64,000 bases of DNA from contig CANJNI010000002.1 in NCBI GenBank assembly GCA_947475995.1, positions 124,001 through 188,000 of the forward strand, written 5' to 3'. Shown here in pieces: positions 30,686 through 44,794 of the stretch. The notes under the pieces were generated by a model. The model saw nothing but the letters and a program-made list of their open reading frames with translations. It ran no database searches and had not been told where the DNA came from. Position numbers and translations under genes: made by a program. Origin of the DNA: Beijerinckiaceae bacterium. GTDB taxonomy: Bacteria; Pseudomonadota; Alphaproteobacteria; Rhizobiales; Beijerinckiaceae. The stretch's first letter is position 1. Each line of letters opens with the position of its first letter.

Positions 30686-31546
30686 CTAACCTTTAAGTTT
30701 GTTGCACAGGGAGTCGAGCTGATCGAGGCTCTTGTAGCGAATGGTGACATCGCCCGTCTCTCCCCGATGGCGGATTACTACCATCAGACCCAATAACTCT
30801 GAAAGCGCGCTTTCCAGCGCCCTAGTATCTGGGTCTTTCTCTGGCTTCGGGGGCTTTGCGCCTGCGGCCCGCTCGCGCTGATCGCCTTGGGCCAGATGCT
30901 CAATGTCGCGGACCGTCAGTCCCTGCTCGACGATTTGGCGTGCTACATGCTCAGGGTCGTGAACTGATAGAAGCGCCCTTGCGTGTCCGGCGGATAGCTG
31001 CCCGGAAACCACGCGCTGCCGGGTCGATTCCGGCAGCTTCAGCAACCGGACGGTATTGGCCACATGGCTGCGGCTCTTTCCGGTAATCTTTGCGATATCT
31101 CCCTGTGAATAGGAGAATTCCGCACCCAGGCGCTCGTAGCCCAGAGCCTCTTCAATAGGATTCAGATCCGCGCGTTGGACATTTTCGACGATCGCGAGCT
31201 CAAGCGCCTCCCGATCTGTTGCTTCAACGAGCCGTACGGGAACCTGATGCAGTCCCGCCTTCTGCGCTGCGCGCCAACGGCGCTCACCTGCGATAATCTC
31301 ATAGACGTCCGGGAAGTCCTTGAGAGGTCGCGCCAGAATTGGCTGAATGACGCCCTTTTCCCGTATCGAGTCGGCGAGCTCAGCGATAGCCTCTTCGTCG
31401 AACTGCTTTCGAGGATTCCGGGGGTTCGGGCGCAGGAACTCAATCGGGGCCATTTTGGTCCGATCCGAGGATTTCGGATCCGAATCGGCGTCGCCGATGA
31501 GGGCGGCCAGCCCGCGACCCAGCCTTGGACGATTCTCTTCTACCAT
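30686..31546 (-). CDS. parB: Chromosome-partitioning protein ParB
   Basis: parS-binding CTP clamp that loads SMC and segregates the origin. 286 residues. N-terminal ParA-stimulating peptide PRLGRGLAALIG, the CTP-binding ParB/sulfiredoxin fold with GERRWRA at about 87-93 and ENVQRADLNPIEEA, the parS-reading helix-turn-helix (YSQGDIAKITGKSRSHVANTVRLL cut at about 145-168) and a C-terminal dimerisation region. Starts 15 bases after parA on the same strand. Its targets are very likely the two perfect parS sites at 32956 and 34855. Confidence 0.97.
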   Translation of the reverse strand: MVEENRPRLGRGLAALIGDADSDPKSSDRTKMAPIEFLRPNPRNPRKQFDEEAIAELADSIREKGVIQPILARPLKDFPDVYEIIAGERRWRAAQKAGLHQVPVRLVEATDREALELAIVENVQRADLNPIEEALGYERLGAEFSYSQGDIAKITGKSRSHVANTVRLLKLPESTRQRVVSGQLSAGHARALLSVHDPEHVARQIVEQGLTVRDIEHLAQGDQRERAAGAKPPKPEKDPDTRALESALSELLGLMVVIRHRGETGDVTIRYKSLDQLDSLCNKLKG

Positions 31547-31561
31547 TTCATCCTACCGAAA

Positions 31562-32362
31562 CTACGCCGCCCGCAGAATACGTTCGCGCTGGATAAGCTC
31601 TGACGCCAACTTCAAGTAGGCTTGGCTCCCAGCACACTTCAGGTCGTATAGCAGCGCAGGCTTGCCGTGGGAGGGCGCCTCGGAGATACGGACATTCCGC
31701 GGGATGATCGTGTCGTAAACCTTGTCGCCCATGAACTTTCGGACATCGGCAACAACCTGGGTGGCCAGATTATTCCGGGGGTCGAACATCGTCAGCACGA
31801 CGCCATGAATAGAAAGTTTCGGATTCAGCGACCGCTTCACTTGGTCGACGGTGGAAAGAAGTTGCGACAATCCCTCCAAAGCAAAAAACTCGCATTGCAG
31901 CGGGACGAGCACACTGTCTGCGGAAGCCAAGGCATTTATGGTCAGGAGATTCAGGGACGGAGGGCAATCAACCAAGACATAAGTATACGGCTGCGCACTG
32001 TCCTGCTGGATCAAATCGCGCAATGCAGCGCGCAACTTGAAAGCGCGATCTTGGGCCGAAGCGATTTCCAGTTCAACGCCTAACAGATCAAGAGTGGATG
32101 GAGCGACCGAAAGATTAGGCACTGCTGTAGGCAGCGCGACTTCTTCTAGGCCCTTCTCACCGATCATCACGTCGTAGGTTGAGTAGCGGCGGCTTTTGCG
32201 ATCAATACCCAGCCCGGTCGACGCATTCCCTTGGGGATCAAGATCAATGATGAGAACCTTTTCACCAATTGCGGCCAAAGCCGTTCCCAGATTGATCGTG
32301 GTTGTGGTTTTTCCCACGCCACCCTTCTGGTTAGCCACCACCAAGGTACGAAGCGAATTCAT
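31562..32362 (-). CDS. parA: Chromosome-partitioning ATPase ParA
   Basis: Deviant-Walker ParA ATPase that forms the nucleoid-bound gradient moving ParB-parS complexes. 266 residues from ATG 32362. Deviant Walker A KGGVGKTTT with signature Lys13 and Lys18, Walker A' LIIDLDPQGNAST and Walker B VLVDCPPSL. The ATG overlaps the rsmG TGA by one base (TGATG), indicating coupling; a GTG three bases earlier is possible. The short N-terminus without HTH marks a chromosomal (type Ib-like) ParA rather than a plasmid one. Confidence 0.97.
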   Translation of the reverse strand: MNSLRTLVVANQKGGVGKTTTTINLGTALAAIGEKVLIIDLDPQGNASTGLGIDRKSRRYSTYDVMIGEKGLEEVALPTAVPNLSVAPSTLDLLGVELEIASAQDRAFKLRAALRDLIQQDSAQPYTYVLVDCPPSLNLLTINALASADSVLVPLQCEFFALEGLSQLLSTVDQVKRSLNPKLSIHGVVLTMFDPRNNLATQVVADVRKFMGDKVYDTIIPRNVRISEAPSHGKPALLYDLKCAGSQAYLKLASELIQRERILRAA

Positions 32363-32985
32363 CACTGTTCTGGCCCCGTATGCGGGGTAAGACCCGCTGT
32401 GACTACCACGACAGCGGCATCCGAGGCAGTCATACTCGGAACCAGTCTATATTGAAGACTACTATATTTCGCCATTTCGGTCAATTCGACCCCTACATCT
32501 CGTCCCTTTAAAAATAGTCCGGTAGCGCCTTTCTCGATCATCGGGCCACCCCACTCCACCAGTTTCGACAGCGGAGCGAGAGCTCTGGCAGAGATAGTGT
32601 CAGGGACATCGAGTGTTGGAAGGATATCTTCGATCCGCCCGAAATGCACGACAGTGGGGGAGCCCGTTTCGCGCGCTACTGCGCGGAGGAATGCGCACTT
32701 TCGGTGATCGCTTTCGATCAGATCCACCCGCGCTCCCGGGATGCCCTTGAGATGAATGGCAGCGACGAGCCCGGGAAAGCCCGCCCCTGAACCCAGATCG
32801 ATCCAGTGGCGCGTATCCCTCGGCGCCAGTGGAATGAGTTGCAAAGAATCGACGATATGGCGACTGTGCGCTTCCTCCAACGTCGATGGAGCGACCAAGT
32901 TCTTGACGAGTTGCCATTTGGACAGCAACCGCAGATAGGTCTTGAAGTCCCGCTCTGTTTCACGTGAAACACCAACAGAAACCAT
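32362..32985 (-). CDS. rsmG: 16S rRNA (guanine-N7) methyltransferase RsmG
   Basis: Methylates G527 of 16S rRNA using SAM (GidB family). 207 residues. SAM motif DLGSGAGFPG at residues 63-72, then VDLIESDHRKCAFLR. The N-terminal VSRETE codons (6-11) coincide with a perfect parS site (32956-32971), so DNA-level selection and protein sequence are linked here. ATG 32985 lies 8 bases after the mnmG stop. Confidence 0.96.
   Translation of the reverse strand: MVSVGVSRETERDFKTYLRLLSKWQLVKNLVAPSTLEEAHSRHIVDSLQLIPLAPRDTRHWIDLGSGAGFPGLVAAIHLKGIPGARVDLIESDHRKCAFLRAVARETGSPTVVHFGRIEDILPTLDVPDTISARALAPLSKLVEWGGPMIEKGATGLFLKGRDVGVELTEMAKYSSLQYRLVPSMTASDAAVVVVTAGLTPHTGPEQ
32956..32971. promoter_or_regulatory. 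parS site 1 (ParB-binding), inside rsmG
   Basis: Perfect 16-bp palindrome TGTTTCACGTGAAACA, identical to the consensus parS of chromosomal ParB proteins. It covers the last base of codon 5 to codon 10 of rsmG. parA and parB lie next to it and the putative origin is about 6.2 kb away, the usual distance range for parS in alphaproteobacteria. Confidence 0.93.
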
Positions 32986-32993
32986 GCCGTTCC

Positions 32994-34871
32994 TCAGGTT
33001 GATTTCGTAGCCGACTCGACACGCCGAGCCTCAGCAATCAGGATCGATAAGGCGGCAGGGGTGACGCCCTCTATGCGCCGAGCCTGGCCCAAGGTACGAG
33101 GGGCAACGGTCGAAAGACGGGACCGCACCTCGTTGGAAAGACCCGGGACTGCATTGTAGTCGATCCTATCGATCATAACCGCTTCATCGCGCGAGATCGA
33201 CGCCATCTCGCCGATCTGCCTATCCAGATAGACGGCGTAATGAGCCTCGTTCTCCAACTGGCAGGCCGCCCACACCGGAACGGCGCCTAGCTCAGGCCAT
33301 ATGTCCCGAAGATCACCGAAAACCACCCCCGGATACCCGAGCAACTCCCACGCGCTCCGTCTGACACCATCAAGCTTGACGTTTAGGCCGGATAGACTCG
33401 CTTCATTTGGCGTCAATGACAGGGAGTACAACCGCGACCTCCAATGGTTCAGCACTCCAATCTTTTCGGCGTAAGCCTTGGCACGATAGTTCCCGACGAC
33501 GCCCAGTTCTACACCCCTGGACGTGAGTCGCTGATCTGCATTATCCGGCCTGAGGGACAGACGGAACTCCGCGCGCGACGTAAACATCCGGTAAGGTTCC
33601 GTAACTCCCTTTGTCACAAGATCATCAATCATGACCCCGATGTAGCTCTCGGTCCGGCTAAACTCGACCGTCTGGCCTCCCGAAGATGCAAGAGCGGCGT
33701 TGAGGCCCGCAACGATCCCTTGGCCCGCCGCCTCCTCATAGCCCGTCGTTCCATTGATCTGCCCAGCCAGAAAGAGACCCTTTAGGCGCTTTGTCTCCAA
33801 CGAAGCGTGCAACTCGCGCGGATCTATGAAGTCGTACTCTATTGCATAGCCAGGGCGGACCATTTCGACTTGGGACAGACCCGGTATCGTCCGCAGGAAT
33901 TCTAGCTGAACGCCTGCAGGCAACGATGTAGATATGCCATTCGGATAGACCAACTCGGTATCCAGACCTTCGGGTTCAAGAAAAATCTGATGCCCATCCC
34001 GGTCACCGAATCGCGAAATCTTATCCTCGATTGAGGGGCAATACCTTGGGCCACGACTTTCGATCGCCCCGGAGAACACTGCGGAAAGGTGCAAATTTCG
34101 CCGGACCACATCGTGAGAGGCCGCAACAGTTCGAGTGATAAGGCAGTCGACCTGTTTCCGGCGGAGTGGCTTGTCGGCAAGAAACGAAAACAACTCAGGC
34201 GGGTCATCTCCGACCTGCCGTTCCAGTCCCGAATCGATAGTGCGCCCGTCCAGCCGGGGAGGCGTGCCAGTCTTTAGCCGACCGACGGCAAAATCCAACT
34301 TGCGGAAGGCTTGGGACAGCAACTCACTGGCTCTATCCCCGACCCTGCCCGCCTTCCATGTCATGTCTCCGAGGTGGATCAAACCACCAAGAAAAGTTCC
34401 AGTCGTGCAGACCGCCGCACCACAGGGGTACAACTCTCCTCCGATGTAAATGCCCCGGAGCCGACCGTTCTCGGCTTCAAGCCCAGTCACTTCGCCTTCA
34501 AGAAGACTCAACCCGGAATAGCTCTCCAGCAGCTCCCGCATCTCCTTCCGGTAAAGCGCGCGATCAGCCTGCGCGCGTGGTCCGCGAACAGCCGGGCCTC
34601 TGGAGCGGTTGAGGACTTTGAACTGGATCCCGGCGGCGTCGATCACGCGGCCCATCAGCCCATCGAGAGCGTCAACTTCTCGTACAAGGTGACCCTTCCC
34701 GACCCCTCCCACGGCGGGGTTACAGGACATCTCACCAATCGCCGAAAGCCGTTGCGTGACGAGCAAGGTCGACGCCCCCATGCGAGCAGCAGCGGCTGCA
34801 GCCTCGCAGCCGGCGTGACCCCCTCCAATGATTACGACGTCGAATCGTTTTGACTGTTTCACGTGAAACAC
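32994..34871 (-). CDS. mnmG: tRNA U34 carboxymethylaminomethyl-modifying enzyme MnmG (GidA)
   Basis: FAD-dependent partner of MnmE installing cmnm5 on U34 of certain tRNAs. 625 residues. FAD-binding [10 protein letters not shown] at residues 16-25, family blocks [22 protein letters not shown] (in parts), [29 protein letters not shown] and a C-terminal helical domain for MnmE and tRNA contact. Start is GTG 34871, whose first codons (M-F-H-V-K-Q) are largely the parS palindrome 34855-34870. mnmE ends 7 bases upstream. Confidence 0.97.
34855..34870. promoter_or_regulatory. parS site 2 (ParB-binding), at the start of mnmG
   Basis: A second perfect TGTTTCACGTGAAACA. It spans codons 1-6 of mnmG (the initiating GTG shares two of its bases), coding F-H-V-K-Q. 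About 1.9 kb from parS site 1 and 4.3 kb from the putative origin. Confidence 0.93.
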
Positions 34872-37672: not shown

Positions 37673-38098
37673 TCAGAAAGGCCTGAAGACCACGAGCAGG
37701 ACAATGCCGATCATCAAGACGGTCGGAACCTCATTTAGAATTCGAAAGAATCGCGCCTCGCGAGAGCGTTGTCCGGCCGCGAACGACAACTGAAACCGTC
37801 GCAGATAGATATGAACGGCGGTCATGCCTATGACGAGCAGAAATTTGATTTGAAACCATATTTCCCGATGAAACCCGCTTTCCACTGCCAGATACAGGCC
37901 GGACCCCCACGCTACCATCATCGCCGGCGCCATGATCGCCTTCAGAAGCCGGCGCTCCATGACCTTGAACAACTCGTCCGGTTGCGAACCCACCATAGTA
38001 TCGCAATGATAAACAAAGAGGCGCGGCAAATATAAAAGTCCAGCCATCCAAGATATGACAGCAATGATATGGATAGACTTAACCGACAGATAAAACAT
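37673..38098 (-). CDS. hemJ: HemJ-type protoporphyrinogen IX oxidase
   Basis: 141-residue membrane protein of the HemJ family (formerly UPF0093), which oxidises protoporphyrinogen IX in bacteria lacking HemG/HemY. Four hydrophobic segments (about 4-25, 55-75, 83-102, 120-139). Conserved His10 (KSIHIIAVISWMAGLLYLPRLFVYH) and the conserved lysine in IWFQIKFLL are present. ATG 38098, two bases after the hemE stop, so it is co-transcribed with hemE, placing two haem-pathway steps together. Confidence 0.94.
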   Translation of the reverse strand: MFYLSVKSIHIIAVISWMAGLLYLPRLFVYHCDTMVGSQPDELFKVMERRLLKAIMAPAMMVAWGSGLYLAVESGFHREIWFQIKFLLVIGMTAVHIYLRRFQLSFAAGQRSREARFFRILNEVPTVLMIGIVLLVVFRPF

Positions 38099-38100
38099 GA

Positions 38101-39135
38101 CTATGAATTCCTGACTTTTTTGACCAAGTCATAGACGTGTTGGACGGGAGTTTGGGGTAAAATGCCGTGGCCAAGATTGAAAACATGCGGTCTCCCACGC
38201 ATTTTTTCCAATATATGATCGACGGAACTCCCGAGCGCCGAACCACCGGTTATCAGCGCCAGCGGATCCAGATTGCCCTGGAGGGCGATGGGCGAACTTA
38301 CGGCGCCTCGGGCGAAATCCAGACCCGTGCTGGTATCAAGACCGATCGCCGCTATGCCGGGAATCGCCGATACTTCCGCAAGATATGACGCCGCGCTTCG
38401 CGGGAAAGCGATGATAGGAGCGCCCGGTACGCGCTCTCGGACCCCTTCTACAATCTGTCGCAGGGGATGCAGACACCATCGCTCAAATTCTGGTTGCGGC
38501 AAGACGCCCGACCATGAATCGAAGATCTGTGCAGCGTCGATCCCAGCATGAAACTGGGCCACCAGATAATCGATCGACGATTGGACCAAAAGTTGGATGA
38601 GACGCTGAAATTCTGCCGGATAGCGATACGCGAACAACCGGGCGGGAGCCTGATCTGGCGTTCCCCGACCGGCTATCATGTAGCTGGCAACAGTCCAGGG
38701 AGCGCCGCAGAAGCCCAAAAAGGTAGTCTCGTCATCCAACGCGCCTTTGACGATCTGGATGGTCTCGAACACAGCGGAAAGTCGCGAGATGTCGACTTGA
38801 TCCCTCAAGATGCTCATCCCGCTCGGTTCGGAGATAGGAGCCAGTCTGGGACCTTCGCCTGTCTCGAATGACACTTTCTGTCCCAGAGCTTCTGGAATGA
38901 CCAGAATATCGCTGAACAGGATAGCAGCGTCGAACCCGAAGCGGCGGATTGGTTGGAGAGTGACTTCAGAAGCCTTCTTGGGCGTGAAGCAGAATTCTAT
39001 GAAACTCGGCGCAGTTGCGCGAATTTCCCGGTATTCAGGCAGATACCGGCCAGCCTGCCTCATCAACCAGATAGGTGGCTTTTCGAGCGTTTCGCCTCTC
39101 AGAACTCTGAGAACTTTTTTAGAGGGGGACTGCAT
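38101..39135 (-). CDS. hemE: Uroporphyrinogen decarboxylase
   Basis: Decarboxylates uroporphyrinogen III to coproporphyrinogen III. 344 residues. Signature PIWLMRQAGRYLPEYRE (residues 21-37), catalytic Asp region AILFSDILVIPEALG, and GFCGAPWTVASYM are present, as well as the C-terminal NLGHGILPQTP. ATG 39135 is the last gene start on the left side of the origin gap. hemE next to oriC is a conserved alphaproteobacterial arrangement. Confidence 0.97.
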   Translation of the reverse strand: MQSPSKKVLRVLRGETLEKPPIWLMRQAGRYLPEYREIRATAPSFIEFCFTPKKASEVTLQPIRRFGFDAAILFSDILVIPEALGQKVSFETGEGPRLAPISEPSGMSILRDQVDISRLSAVFETIQIVKGALDDETTFLGFCGAPWTVASYMIAGRGTPDQAPARLFAYRYPAEFQRLIQLLVQSSIDYLVAQFHAGIDAAQIFDSWSGVLPQPEFERWCLHPLRQIVEGVRERVPGAPIIAFPRSAASYLAEVSAIPGIAAIGLDTSTGLDFARGAVSSPIALQGNLDPLALITGGSALGSSVDHILEKMRGRPHVFNLGHGILPQTPVQHVYDLVKKVRNS

Positions 39136-39529
39136 GCGGGCTCCGTGCGACGCCGCCTCTATATCTGAATCGAATCATTTCTGGTGGTGTTTTTTGTTAT
39201 GCTGTGGAAAGCGGCAATTAATTGTTTGTTCTCCATCGCCGGCGCTTTTCGCAGATGATTCCCGCAATTCACAGGGATGTCAGACGCTTTGGACGATTAA
39301 CGTTTTGTTAGGATTTACAGATCGTTAACCAATCAGCCGCGTAATCAGTTCGCATCTCGTTCACCTTGTCCCCGACATTGACAAGCAAGCCTGTCAGAAA
39401 CCATCCAGGCAAATTGGCCGTGCATGAATGGAACGTGATATTCATGAATTACGGGAACGACAGCCTCGGCTCATGCTCTCGCTGGCGCTTACCCACACAT
39501 ATCCGCCGGGCCGCCCACAGGATCGATGC
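39136..39529. other. Putative chromosomal replication origin (oriC) region
   Basis: 394 bases without a gene between divergent hemE and the PPSR-type gene, the longest gap in the window. 39161-39350 is about 43% GC by hand count, far below the flanking genes. It holds T-rich GTTTTTTGTTAT (39189-39200), CTTTCCACA on the minus strand (39203-39211), TTACCCACA (39489-39497), the weaker CAATTCACA (39265-39273), a CtrA-like TTAA-N7-TTAG (39297-39311) and TTAACC (39325-39330). oriC lies between hemE and this same neighbour gene in Caulobacter and Rickettsia, and beside hemE in Sinorhizobium. Strand switch of genes and nearby parABS support the call. DnaA boxes are imperfect. Confidence 0.75.
39297..39330. 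promoter_or_regulatory. CtrA-like binding sites in the origin region
   Basis: TTAA-CGTTTTG-TTAG (39297-39311) matches the CtrA consensus TTAA-N7-TTAA with one mismatch, and GTTAACC (39324-39330) resembles the CtrA half-site TTAACC. In Caulobacter CtrA binds such sites in the origin and silences replication. Whether CtrA does so in this organism is not known. Confidence 0.45.
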
Positions 39530-40360
39530 GTGACCAGAAACTATTTTCACCTCCATCTTGTTTCAGACGCGACAGGAGAAACGTTGATCGCTGTCAGCCG
39601 GGCAGTCGCGGCCCAATATCAGGGCGTGGCCTCAATCGAACACGTTTATCCTTTGGTTCGAACGAGAGCACAGCTGGACAGGGCCATTGATGAAATCGAG
39701 GCCGCGCCGGGAATCGTCCTTTTCACTCTGGTGGACAGCGAACTCTCGGGCGTTCTCGAAAAAGCCTGTCAGGAAAACGGCAGCCCATGCCTTTCCGTTC
39801 TTCAGCCCATACTGGGTGTCTTCGAATCCTATCTGGGCACAGCGTCGATCTCCCGACCGGGCGCCCAGCACATGCTGAACGCCGACTATTTCAAGCGGAT
39901 CGACGCGCTCAACTTCACCATGATGCATGACGACGGCCAACAGCCCGAGAACCTTGAGCAGGCCGATGTTGTATTGCTGGGTGTAAGCCGGACCTCCAAG
40001 ACTCCTACCTCCATCTATCTCGCCAATCGTGGAATCAAGACGGCCAACGTACCGCTCGTGCCGGACGTACCGCCGCCCGCAGCCTTGGAGAATCTCCGGA
40101 AACCACTCGTCGTCGGTCTCCTCGCCTCTCCAGAGAGGATCGTCCAGATCCGACAGAACAGACTGCTTGCATTGAATGCGGATCAGGAAACCCCGTACGT
40201 CGACCGCATGTCGGTTGCGGAGGAAGTCGCCCATTCGAGACGCCTGTTCGCGCAGCATGGTTGGCCGTTCATAGATGTCACGCGGCGATCCATCGAAGAA
40301 ACCGCAGCCGCTATAATCGACCTCTACAAGGCGCACAAACTGAAGCTGATGGCGCAATGA
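39530..40360 (+). CDS. Pyruvate,phosphate dikinase / PEP synthase regulatory protein (DUF299)
   Basis: 276-residue bifunctional kinase/pyrophosphorylase that switches PPDK or PEP synthase off and on by ADP-dependent phosphorylation and Pi-dependent dephosphorylation. Begins [15 protein letters not shown]; the nucleotide-binding loop [15 protein letters not shown] is central, and [15 protein letters not shown] is near the end. I chose GTG 39530 (AGGA 7 bases upstream) because homologues start within a few residues of YFHLHLVSD; an upstream in-frame start at 39428 would extend into the origin region. First gene to the right of the putative oriC, as RP001 is in Rickettsia. Overlaps maf by 4 bases. 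Confidence 0.95.
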
Positions 40361-42748: not shown

Positions 42749-42933
42749 TTCGTTCTCCTGCGGCCCCTCGAACGGCGGCCTGCTGATCATCAACCGGGCT
42801 GGCGGGTACCATGGAAGAAGAAACGAAACAAGCCAGCGCCGACCTGGCATCCGGCACGGGAAATTGCGAAAGGAACGAACTATATTAAAACCTCTATGGC
42901 TTAGCCGAACTCTTAGCAGACAGGCCGACTCGA

Positions 42934-43656
42934 ATGTTTGACGTCACAACGGTCATTTTCGCCATTCTGGCGGTTTTTGTGGTCTGGAAGCTGCGTTCGG
43001 TGCTTGGGACCCGCACCGGGAGCGAAAAGCCCCCCCACGACCCATTCTCCCGTCCGTCCCGCAACCCGGACGACCGCGAGGTTGGCAACGACAATGGAAA
43101 CGTGATTCGCCTGCCCGGGGCGGCGAACAGCAAGCCGGTCGGGGAAGCTGATGATGCGGTTTCTGCGGCGGATCGCTGGGCGGGTTACGCCGAGCCGGGT
43201 TCGCCGAGTTGGAACGGACTTGAAGCAATTGCGGCCGGCGAACCCGATTTCTCGCCCCGGATGTTCATCGAAGGCGCCACGGCAGCCTATGAGATGATCG
43301 TCGTGGCGTTTGCGGCGGGGGACAGGAACACTCTTCGCAATCTTCTGGTCAAGGATGTCTTTGACAGCTTTTCTCAAGCCATCACGGAACGTGAAGCGCG
43401 TGGTGAAAAGGTTCAGTCGACCTTTGTTTCCATCGACAAGACCGTAATTGATGATGCGGCGGTTCGTGGCAGGTCGGCCCAGATCAGTGTTCGTTTCCAG
43501 TCCAAGCTGATCACCGCGACGCGCGATGCAGCGGGCAACATCATCGACGGCAATGCCGAAAAGGTCGTCGACATGATCGACGTCTGGACCTTTACGAGGG
43601 AACTCGGATCTCGCGATCCCAACTGGCGCTTGATGGCGACGGATTCCGCGCATTAG
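42934..43656 (+). CDS. Tim44-like membrane-anchored protein
   Basis: 240 residues. One N-terminal membrane segment (about 3-20, [16 protein letters not shown]), a polar, Pro-rich spacer (21-90), and a C-terminal Tim44/TIM44-like alpha/beta domain (about 95-235: [53 protein letters not shown]). The bacterial relatives are inner-membrane-anchored proteins of envelope or mitochondrial-import-like lineage with no settled function. ATG 42934. The placement secB-Tim44-mltA-smr is a conserved rhizobial block. Confidence 0.92.
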
Positions 43657-43666
43657 TGGCTCGACG

Positions 43667-44794
43667 ATGGAAGATGCCGGGGACATCGAAAAGTCAGGAG
43701 CTGTTCTGACTCCTTTTCCGTTCTCGGGTTTGCGTGGCTTCGCGGACGATCACCTTTTGTCCGCATTCGCGACTTTTAAGCGATCATCTCTGCGGATGTT
43801 GAGCAGTCACCCAGTTTTGCGACAGGCTCATTCTCCACATGCCGGGCTGCATGATGTTTGCGCCGCCGCAAGTGGCGCGACAATCAGCTCCAACGAGGAG
43901 GCGCGGGATTTTTTCCAGCACCACTTCAGGGCTTTCAGGATCGGAGCCATCGGGAAGGAAACAGGGTTTCTGACTGGCTATTATGAACCTGTGGTGGACG
44001 CTTCTCCGCAAAGAAATGCCGCCTTTGCAGAGCCTGTTTACGGTTTGCCGCCCGACCTGTTTTCACTGCCGCTTGAAGACAGGCGAGGATCGGATGATCT
44101 TTCCGGCGGTTTTTTCCAGGAAGGAATCCTGAAGCCATATCCGGACCGCGCTGCAATTTACGCCGGCGCCTTGCACGGCCGCGCACCGGTGCTGATGTGG
44201 CTGCGCGACAAGATCGAGCTTTTCATGATTCAGGTTCAGGGAAGCGCGAGGGTGCGGCTACCGGACAAAACGATCGGCCGTCTTGTCTATGCAGGCCGGA
44301 ACGGGCGTCCCTATTCGTCGATCGGCCGCAAACTGATCGAAATCGGCGCTGTCAAATCCGCCGAAATGTCTCTCGAGAATCTGAAAGCGTGGGTCAGGCA
44401 GGCCGGGCAGCATGATGGTGCGCCGGGTCGTTGCTTGCTGGAAACCAACGCTTCCTATGTCTTTTTTGATTTCCAGCCGATGCACAATTCGGACGATGGC
44501 CCTATTGGCGGTGAAGGAGTTCCGTTGACGGAGCTTCGTTCCATAGCGGTTGATCGCCATATCTGGAGCTATGGCTTGCCATTCTGGGTCGATGCAAGAC
44601 TGCCGTGGGAGGAATCGAAGCCGACGAGCTTTTCACGATTGATGATTGCGCAGGATACCGGATCGGCGATCCTTGGGCCGTCCCGCCTCGATCTCTATTT
44701 TGGTTCAGGCGATAGGGCGGGCAGTCTGGCGGGACGCATCCGGCACGATGCTGATGTCTTCGTACTCCTCCCGCGCCGTGGAACATCCGCGTGA
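43667..44794 (+). CDS. mltA: MltA-domain membrane-bound-type lytic transglycosylase
   Basis: 375-residue lytic transglycosylase A homologue that cleaves peptidoglycan with 1,6-anhydro-muramyl product. MltA beta-barrel (TGYYEPVVDAS; LFMIQVQGSARVRLPD; GRNGRPYSSIGRKLIE) plus the 3D domain at the end with SRLMIAQDTGSAILGPSRLDLYFGSGDRAGSLAG in parts, which carries the family's catalytic aspartates. No signal peptide or lipobox is visible at the N-terminus, so export is unexplained. ATG 43667, 10 bases after the Tim44-like gene; the stop overlaps the next GTG. Confidence 0.94.
   Translation: MEDAGDIEKSGAVLTPFPFSGLRGFADDHLLSAFATFKRSSLRMLSSHPVLRQAHSPHAGLHDVCAAASGATISSNEEARDFFQHHFRAFRIGAIGKETGFLTGYYEPVVDASPQRNAAFAEPVYGLPPDLFSLPLEDRRGSDDLSGGFFQEGILKPYPDRAAIYAGALHGRAPVLMWLRDKIELFMIQVQGSARVRLPDKTIGRLVYAGRNGRPYSSIGRKLIEIGAVKSAEMSLENLKAWVRQAGQHDGAPGRCLLETNASYVFFDFQPMHNSDDGPIGGEGVPLTELRSIAVDRHIWSYGLPFWVDARLPWEESKPTSFSRLMIAQDTGSAILGPSRLDLYFGSGDRAGSLAGRIRHDADVFVLLPRRGTSA

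Follow-up and report, generated by a model that had tools for sequence, protein, structure and literature searches.

The window, that is, the whole stretch of DNA that we analysed, comprises 64,000 nucleotides (C2:124001-188000) of a 4.14-Mb genome in 73 contigs; contig C2 measures 217 kb. Among named records, those nearest to it are Beijerinckiaceae and 'Rhizobiales' MAGs, within the order Hyphomicrobiales. A sequence-only reading of the window had pointed to the region between hemE and a PPSR-type gene as a probable chromosomal replication origin. The region is composed as follows:

38101-39135, minus strand: hemE, uroporphyrinogen decarboxylase, left boundary gene (Pfam URO-D, E 2.7e-109)
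39136-39529, no strand: probable oriC, the whole hemE/PPSR intergenic region (skew in 4/4 same-genus relatives, motif enrichment in 94 orthologous gaps)
39161-39235, no strand: AT-rich stretch that contains a T run and may serve as unwinding element (the best 60 nt begin at 39176, 65% AT)
39167-39176, no strand: directly adjoining pair of CcrM-type GANTC sites within the AT-rich stretch, both GAATC (39167 and 39172)
39203-39211, minus strand: weak DnaA-box-like 9-mer CTTTCCACA with 2 mismatches to TTATCCACA, next to the AT-rich tract
39257: third GANTC site, GATTC
39265-39273: DnaA-box-like 9-mer (3 mismatches to TTATCCACA)
39297-39311, no strand: CtrA-type site TTAACGTTTTGTTAG, 1 mismatch, in the position range of the relatives' perfect sites
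39314-39328, no strand: second CtrA-type site TTTACAGATCGTTAA, 1 mismatch
39489-39497, plus strand: DnaA box TTACCCACA with 1 mismatch, close to the start of PPSR; many relatives have TTATCCAC-type boxes here
39530-40360, plus strand: PPSR / COG1806 kinase-pyrophosphorylase gene, right boundary, GTG start (Pfam Kinase-PPPase, E 5.1e-93)

The Kinase-PPPase match begins at residue 42 of the ORF that starts with ATG 39428, which makes GTG 39530 a plausible PPSR start. With this start, the gap between hemE on the minus strand and PPSR on the plus strand spans 394 bp (39136-39529), as had been stated, and both the switch of gene orientation between the divergent genes and the T-rich tract are present. 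The GC content of 39161-39350, previously put at about 43% by hand count, was calculated as 0.426, compared to 0.510 for the gap and 0.593 for the window. This stretch is among the lowest-GC 190-bp stretches of the window, with 38031-38220 being lower (0.405). Leftward from the gap, the gene order is hemE, a UPF0093 gene (called hemJ), rho, mnmE, mnmG/gidA, rsmG, parA, parB and holA, and rightward it is PPSR, maf, coaE, an RNase_T exonuclease gene (called dnaQ) and secB. Between secB and a murein-transglycosylase-like gene lies a 257-aa ORF (42913-43686, minus strand) without an NCBIfam match at E 0.001. Searches against Rfam at gathering thresholds gave no match in the window.

Alphaproteobacterial origins of the Caulobacter type occupy a divergent hemE/COG1806 intergenic region of several hundred bp, hold an AT-rich, low-GC stretch and have parS within about 10 kb. 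The 394-bp gap is such a region and holds such a stretch, and its distance from the two perfect parS sites is 4.3 and 6.2 kb (0.14 matches are expected when up to three mismatches are allowed). A parABS system had been placed near the gap, and we indeed found parAB at 30686-32365 on the minus strand beside the two perfect parS sites, with parA named from matches below cut-off:

30686-31546, minus strand: parB (NCBIfam TIGR00180 parB_part, E 9.3e-54, above cut-off)
31562-32365, minus strand: parA, beside parB (ParA/MinD-type NCBIfam matches, all below curated cut-offs)
32956-32971, no strand: parS, perfect 16-mer, inside the start of rsmG
34855-34870, no strand: parS, perfect 16-mer, at the start of mnmG/gidA

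The dnaA gene is encoded on the same contig (C2:202813-204261), about 40 kb from the gap. The presence of dnaA, mnmG, rho, hemE and parABS on the contig points to the main chromosome rather than to a secondary replicon.

The gap taken by itself is a weak case for an origin; it is the relatives that make it an oriC. The three DnaA-box-like 9-mers that had been listed are all present as written, but their number is within chance: using the E. coli consensus, the single box with up to one mismatch was matched or exceeded in 90/1000 shuffles and the two boxes with up to two mismatches in 286/1000. Likewise, at least one one-mismatch copy of TTAA-N7-TTAA occurred in 91/1000 shuffles, and the gap's two such copies, taken alone, are no more than suggestive. 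None of the 28 perfect TTAA-N7-TTAA sites of the genome lies in the gap.

A GC-skew minimum at the gap had been named as a check of the origin reading. This check gave no support on the own contig, 217 kb of the 4.14-Mb genome, where the cumulative minimum was at 214 kb and not at the gap (163.1-163.5 kb of the contig). The mean skew climbs from -0.0104 on the left of the gap to -0.0016 on the right, and no GC-skew changepoint was significant on this contig; the best, at 90 kb, was matched by 187/500 block permutations. We also trained k-mer models on relatives. In leave-one-out runs these located each of the four control origins with an error of no more than about 6 kb; on the own contig they detected no significant switch at k 4 (best point 90 kb, 161/500), k 6 (117 kb, 96/500) or k 8 (117 kb, 48/500). 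The motif GGGNAGGG, the E. coli KOPS motif, a pattern that GGGCAGGG fits as well, is distributed in agreement with the gap, with 2 copies on the plus and 14 on the minus strand to the left of it and 2 on the plus and none on the minus strand to the right (one-sided p 0.039, uncorrected for the three variants tried). The other variants showed no significant bias on this contig (GGGCAGG p 0.57, GGGCAGGG p 0.11), and among the four relatives taken singly the GGGNAGGG bias was significant in G040 only. The most strand-biased octamer in the pooled stretches of G015, G036, G040 and G018 was GGGCAGGG (106 versus 22).

We analysed the skew of four same-genus relatives, which were picked for long contigs with their skew unseen at the time of choice. 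In all four (4/4), the best GC-skew changepoint was found 0.5-5 kb from the orthologous gap (1-kb bins):

G015: changepoint 96 kb, gap 97.3-97.8 kb, 0/500 block permutations as good
G036: changepoint 105 kb, gap 99.6-100.0 kb, 0/500 block permutations as good
G040: changepoint 190 kb, gap 188.4-188.8 kb, 0/500 block permutations as good
G018: changepoint 201 kb, gap 200.1-200.5 kb, 3/500 block permutations as good

The cumulative minimum was close to the gap in G036 (103.8 versus 100.0 kb) and G040 (189.7 versus 188.8 kb). In G015 it missed the gap by 9 kb (88 versus 97 kb of the stretch), and in G018 it lay far away (15 kb versus the gap at 200 kb); there, the skew is positive on both sides and only grows at the gap. 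G015 is a single contig of 5.94 Mb, and 60 sampled 20-kb stretches revealed a two-arm GC skew with a minimum at 4.51 Mb, the gap being located at 4.517 Mb. The AT skew of G015 had no minimum at the gap.

The gap is conserved. Within the genus, 35 of 51 genomes (own included) have the PPSR gene; 30 of these 35 matches had loci and were used, and 16 duplicates of named records were left out. The 14 same-genus gaps, including the own gap, and 80 named loci form a set of 94 gaps. On the left side hemE, hemJ and rho were sought, and gap length was taken to the nearest of these by tblastn ends irrespective of intervening genes; for L045, L050 and the 14 same-genus loci, a fixed 420 bp upstream was taken as the gap. 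PPSR is preceded by a gap of 343-698 bp in 78/80 named loci, and the nearest left gene is hemE in 63, hemJ in 12, rho in 3 and none of these in 2. The comparison of hemE covered 38101-39135 of the window and loci L314-L327: the gene is absent from the origin junction at 12/30 genus loci, and where it is present there its identity to the hemE of the window is about 56-67%, compared to about 79-93% for PPSR. An order-level search matched 247/297 genomes, and 58 gaps from 25 families were chosen among the matches listed for family spread before any sequence was seen; G056 was left out because it lies at a contig end. The two sets share one gap (L256, identical to L057, without N7 site), leaving 57 independent order-level gaps with 30 perfect sites.

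The family of gaps is rich in DnaA boxes. We counted 103 boxes with up to one mismatch in the 94 gaps, 70 of which hold at least one, versus 6.8 in shuffles, and box density was 2.51/kb in the gaps versus 0.13/kb in the coding flank. The plus strand carries 78 of the boxes, and 39 of those lie in the last 75 bp before PPSR. Of the 500-bp box clusters along the long stretches of the relatives, the largest lay in the gap in G015 (3 boxes) and G040 (4); the gap tied for first place in G018 (2) and did not lead in G036, with one box, or on the own contig, where the largest clusters, of two boxes, are elsewhere. Mean AT content in the named relatives peaks 20-80 bp from the upstream gene.

GANTC sites are enriched as well (413 in the 94 gaps versus 208 in shuffles), with a density of 10.05/kb compared to 2.58/kb in the coding flank; this corresponds to a 3.9-fold difference, while seven other interrupted palindromes reached at most 2-fold. 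The GANTC cluster of the own gap is not exceptional on its contig: out of 707 60-bp stretches that begin with such a site, 19 contain more. The genome encodes a CcrM-type methyltransferase, a RAMA-domain ORF that matches the CcrM model over the last 92 positions in the part scanned. For origins of Caulobacter, the cited part of PMC3973325 likewise describes several GANTC motifs. Outside the window, G000:C2:32924-33323 contains a GANTC cluster with 16 sites in 400 bp, compared to a contig mean of 3.26 per kb.

The CtrA-type motif TTAA-N7-TTAA stood out further. Perfect copies were found in 57/94 gaps, while shuffles had a mean of 0.6 loci and a maximum of 3 in 30 rounds; other spacers occurred in 17 (N3), 10 (N6), 2 (N8) and 0 (N9) of the 94 gaps. 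After similar gaps had been thinned, N7 remained in 46/81, versus 5 for N6 and 1 for N8. Outside the gap, the 80 named loci contain one perfect N7 site in 912,658 bases. At the order level, perfect N7 sites occur in 30/58 gaps and 15 of 25 families, or in 27/51 gaps and 14/24 families when the window's own family is omitted. The families f21 (0/3), f30 (0/3) and f17 (0/2) showed none. An unguided count of all tetramer pairs with spacers 0-14 ranked TTAA-N7-TTAA first in both samples. Sorted by genus according to record titles, perfect sites are present in Methylobacterium (5/5), Bosea (4/4), Microvirga (14/16), Enterovirga (1/2) and Methylocapsa (1/4), in six genera or groups of one or two records (7/7) and in 25/56 of all others. 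Perfect sites 180-320 bp before PPSR were seen in 50/94 gaps near the window's lineage and in 16/58 across the order, and the two one-mismatch copies of the own gap fall in this range. We rejected the idea that a DnaA box regularly abuts the N7 site: this was the case for 10/69 sites near the window's lineage (1.0 expected) and for 0/32 at the order level (0.8 expected).

Could the gap be simply a long divergent hemE/PPSR promoter region, in which the boxes and TTAA-N7-TTAA serve as transcriptional control sites? The genes hemE and PPSR are transcribed divergently, a role as transcription factors is described for both CtrA and DnaA (PMC4468827 and PMC2877005, in the passages drawn on), and a site located some 180-320 bp in front of PPSR could influence a promoter. 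We consider this explanation very improbable. In every relative analysed (4/4), the best skew changepoint lies beside the gap. At 12/30 genus loci, hemE was not found in the 1.5 kb upstream, and the 600 bp upstream of displaced hemE lack a perfect N7 site or DnaA box at 13/13 loci (12 genomes), which identifies the gap and not the hemE promoter as the conserved element. These were 14 displaced-hemE loci, one of them lacking upstream sequence; G022 is supported by a weak match of 25 residues, and G039 carries an N7 site with one mismatch. Conversely, perfect N7 sites are kept in 6/15 gaps beside hemJ (5/12) or rho (1/3), compared to 44/63 beside hemE. PPSR is split from rho in two same-genus genomes, G017:C30 (L010, L045, L254) and G029:C43 (L030, L050, L255), and in these two genomes, the only such cases, no N7 site with up to one mismatch accompanies PPSR. 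Here, N7 sites with up to one mismatch and DnaA boxes are absent both from the 4 kb that follow rho and from 600 bp in front of hemE, and the PPSR side (L045, L050) has one one-mismatch DnaA box in G017 and none in G029. The origin of G017 and G029, not found at the rho side or upstream of hemE, may have moved or decayed. That the origin lies elsewhere on the own contig, for instance near dnaA, is suggested by the skew minimum at 214 kb and by the distance of 40 kb between dnaA and the gap, and is extremely improbable nonetheless: C2:204200-205200 is devoid of DnaA boxes with up to one mismatch, and the changepoint of the relatives is at the orthologous gap.

We conclude, with a probability of about 0.93, that 39136-39529 is the chromosomal oriC of a Beijerinckiaceae-type alphaproteobacterium and belongs to the hemE/PPSR (COG1806) junction type. 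The origin reading is thereby supported through the skew of the relatives and the motif enrichment in the gap family, and not through the skew test in the own genome.

We wondered whether the conserved site reflects control by CtrA. The genome encodes CtrA, as NCBIfam CtrA is matched over positions 1-190 (347 bits) and 152-224 (148 bits) at two contig ends, with neither part alone reaching the 350-bit cut-off that applies to the complete protein. The gene is split by a contig break, and the ends of G000:C3 and G000:C50 share at least 31 bases. A spacer of N7 is the CtrA spacing given in the cited part of PMC4285127. In the passages used here, a 2015 review states that CtrA sites were not seen in origins beyond Caulobacter and perhaps Rickettsia (PMC4468827), CtrA of Brucella is reported not to bind the origin (PMC2877005), and in S. 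meliloti CtrA is described as acting on initiation indirectly, if at all (PMC4433202); CtrA sites have been predicted in Wolbachia and Rickettsia (PMC1914354). Among the matches listed by our searches of open-access titles and abstract openings, with queries that were rarely genus-specific, none dealt with CtrA sites in origins of Methylobacterium, Microvirga, Bosea or Beijerinckiaceae.

An origin in which TTAA-N7-TTAA is bound by another protein, or is a by-product of AT-rich origin sequence, would need no CtrA at all. Such an origin would fit the 28/58 order-level gaps that lack a perfect site, the relatives G040 and G018, which have their skew changepoint at the gap and no site even at one mismatch (G015 and G036 carry perfect ones), and the absence of DnaA boxes next to the N7 site in the order-level set. 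We regard it as unlikely, given how specific the spacing is (N7 in 30/58 order-level gaps versus 0-2/58 for each of N3-N6 and N8-N11), that this tetramer pair comes first among all pairs in both sets and that its spacer is that of CtrA. The pattern of sites suggests, and we hold it to be reasonably likely, that direct CtrA control is common in Hyphomicrobiales origins and acts via the conserved TTAA-N7-TTAA. Control of the Caulobacter kind would then be ancestral or widespread in the order and missing in S. meliloti and Brucella, and the window would represent a member with a weakened site.

From the features of the gap we infer how initiation might proceed. DnaA, whose gene lies about 40 kb away, would attach to the boxes, which are few and for the most part weak, and unwind the AT-rich tract at the hemE end of the gap, after which forks would depart in both directions. 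CtrA, sitting on the central TTAA-N7-TTAA-type sites of the gap, would probably hold off initiation, and the GANTC sites in the AT-rich tract may report the methylation state. A ParB-parS complex 4-6 kb away would segregate the new origins.

If CtrA control is indeed common in the order, the opposite rule was drawn from lineages that lack it, namely S. meliloti and Brucella. Control of the origin by CtrA is described as a trait of Caulobacter and possibly of Rickettsia in the cited part of PMC4468827, and we find the spacing-specific motif in 30/58 sampled origins of the order. Genera that are easy to grow, Methylobacterium and Microvirga among them, would allow a direct test of this question. 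In Caulobacter, loss of the CtrA sites disturbed replication only mildly during constant culture (PMC4468827).

Known systems, for which we draw on parts of the published accounts, show both likenesses to the window and differences from it. For Methylocystis sp. SC2, a genus with a record among the relatives of the window (L083), Ori-Finder predicted an oriC with three DnaA boxes and a GC content 10% below that of the chromosome; it differs in being a 1063-bp prediction and in that GC skew was uninformative there. Sinorhizobium meliloti belongs, like Beijerinckiaceae, to the NCBI order Hyphomicrobiales, and its chromosomal origin adjoins hemE. Unlike the window, this origin is reported to have no CtrA motif and not to be bound by CtrA (PMC4433202, in the part cited). 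Hyphomonas neptunium, a member of the Hyphomonadales and in this respect unlike the window, has its replication peak near hemE according to marker frequency and its parAB about 7 kb away; a CtrA ChIP-seq peak adjoins its origin (PMC7200025). A further parallel is offered by Cori of Caulobacter crescentus, a hemE - COG1806 junction with DnaA G- and W-boxes, CtrA sites and an IHF site. Cori has five CtrA sites where the window has two imperfect N7 sites, and its G-box TGATCCACA is not among the matches of the own gap. The two share the boundary genes, few weak DnaA boxes, an AT-rich stretch, CtrA-type TTAA-N7-TTAA sites (imperfect in the window), GANTC sites and parS within 8 kb. The very probable origin in the window is an ordinary member of the hemE-PPSR type, and as such an ordinary origin for Alphaproteobacteria.
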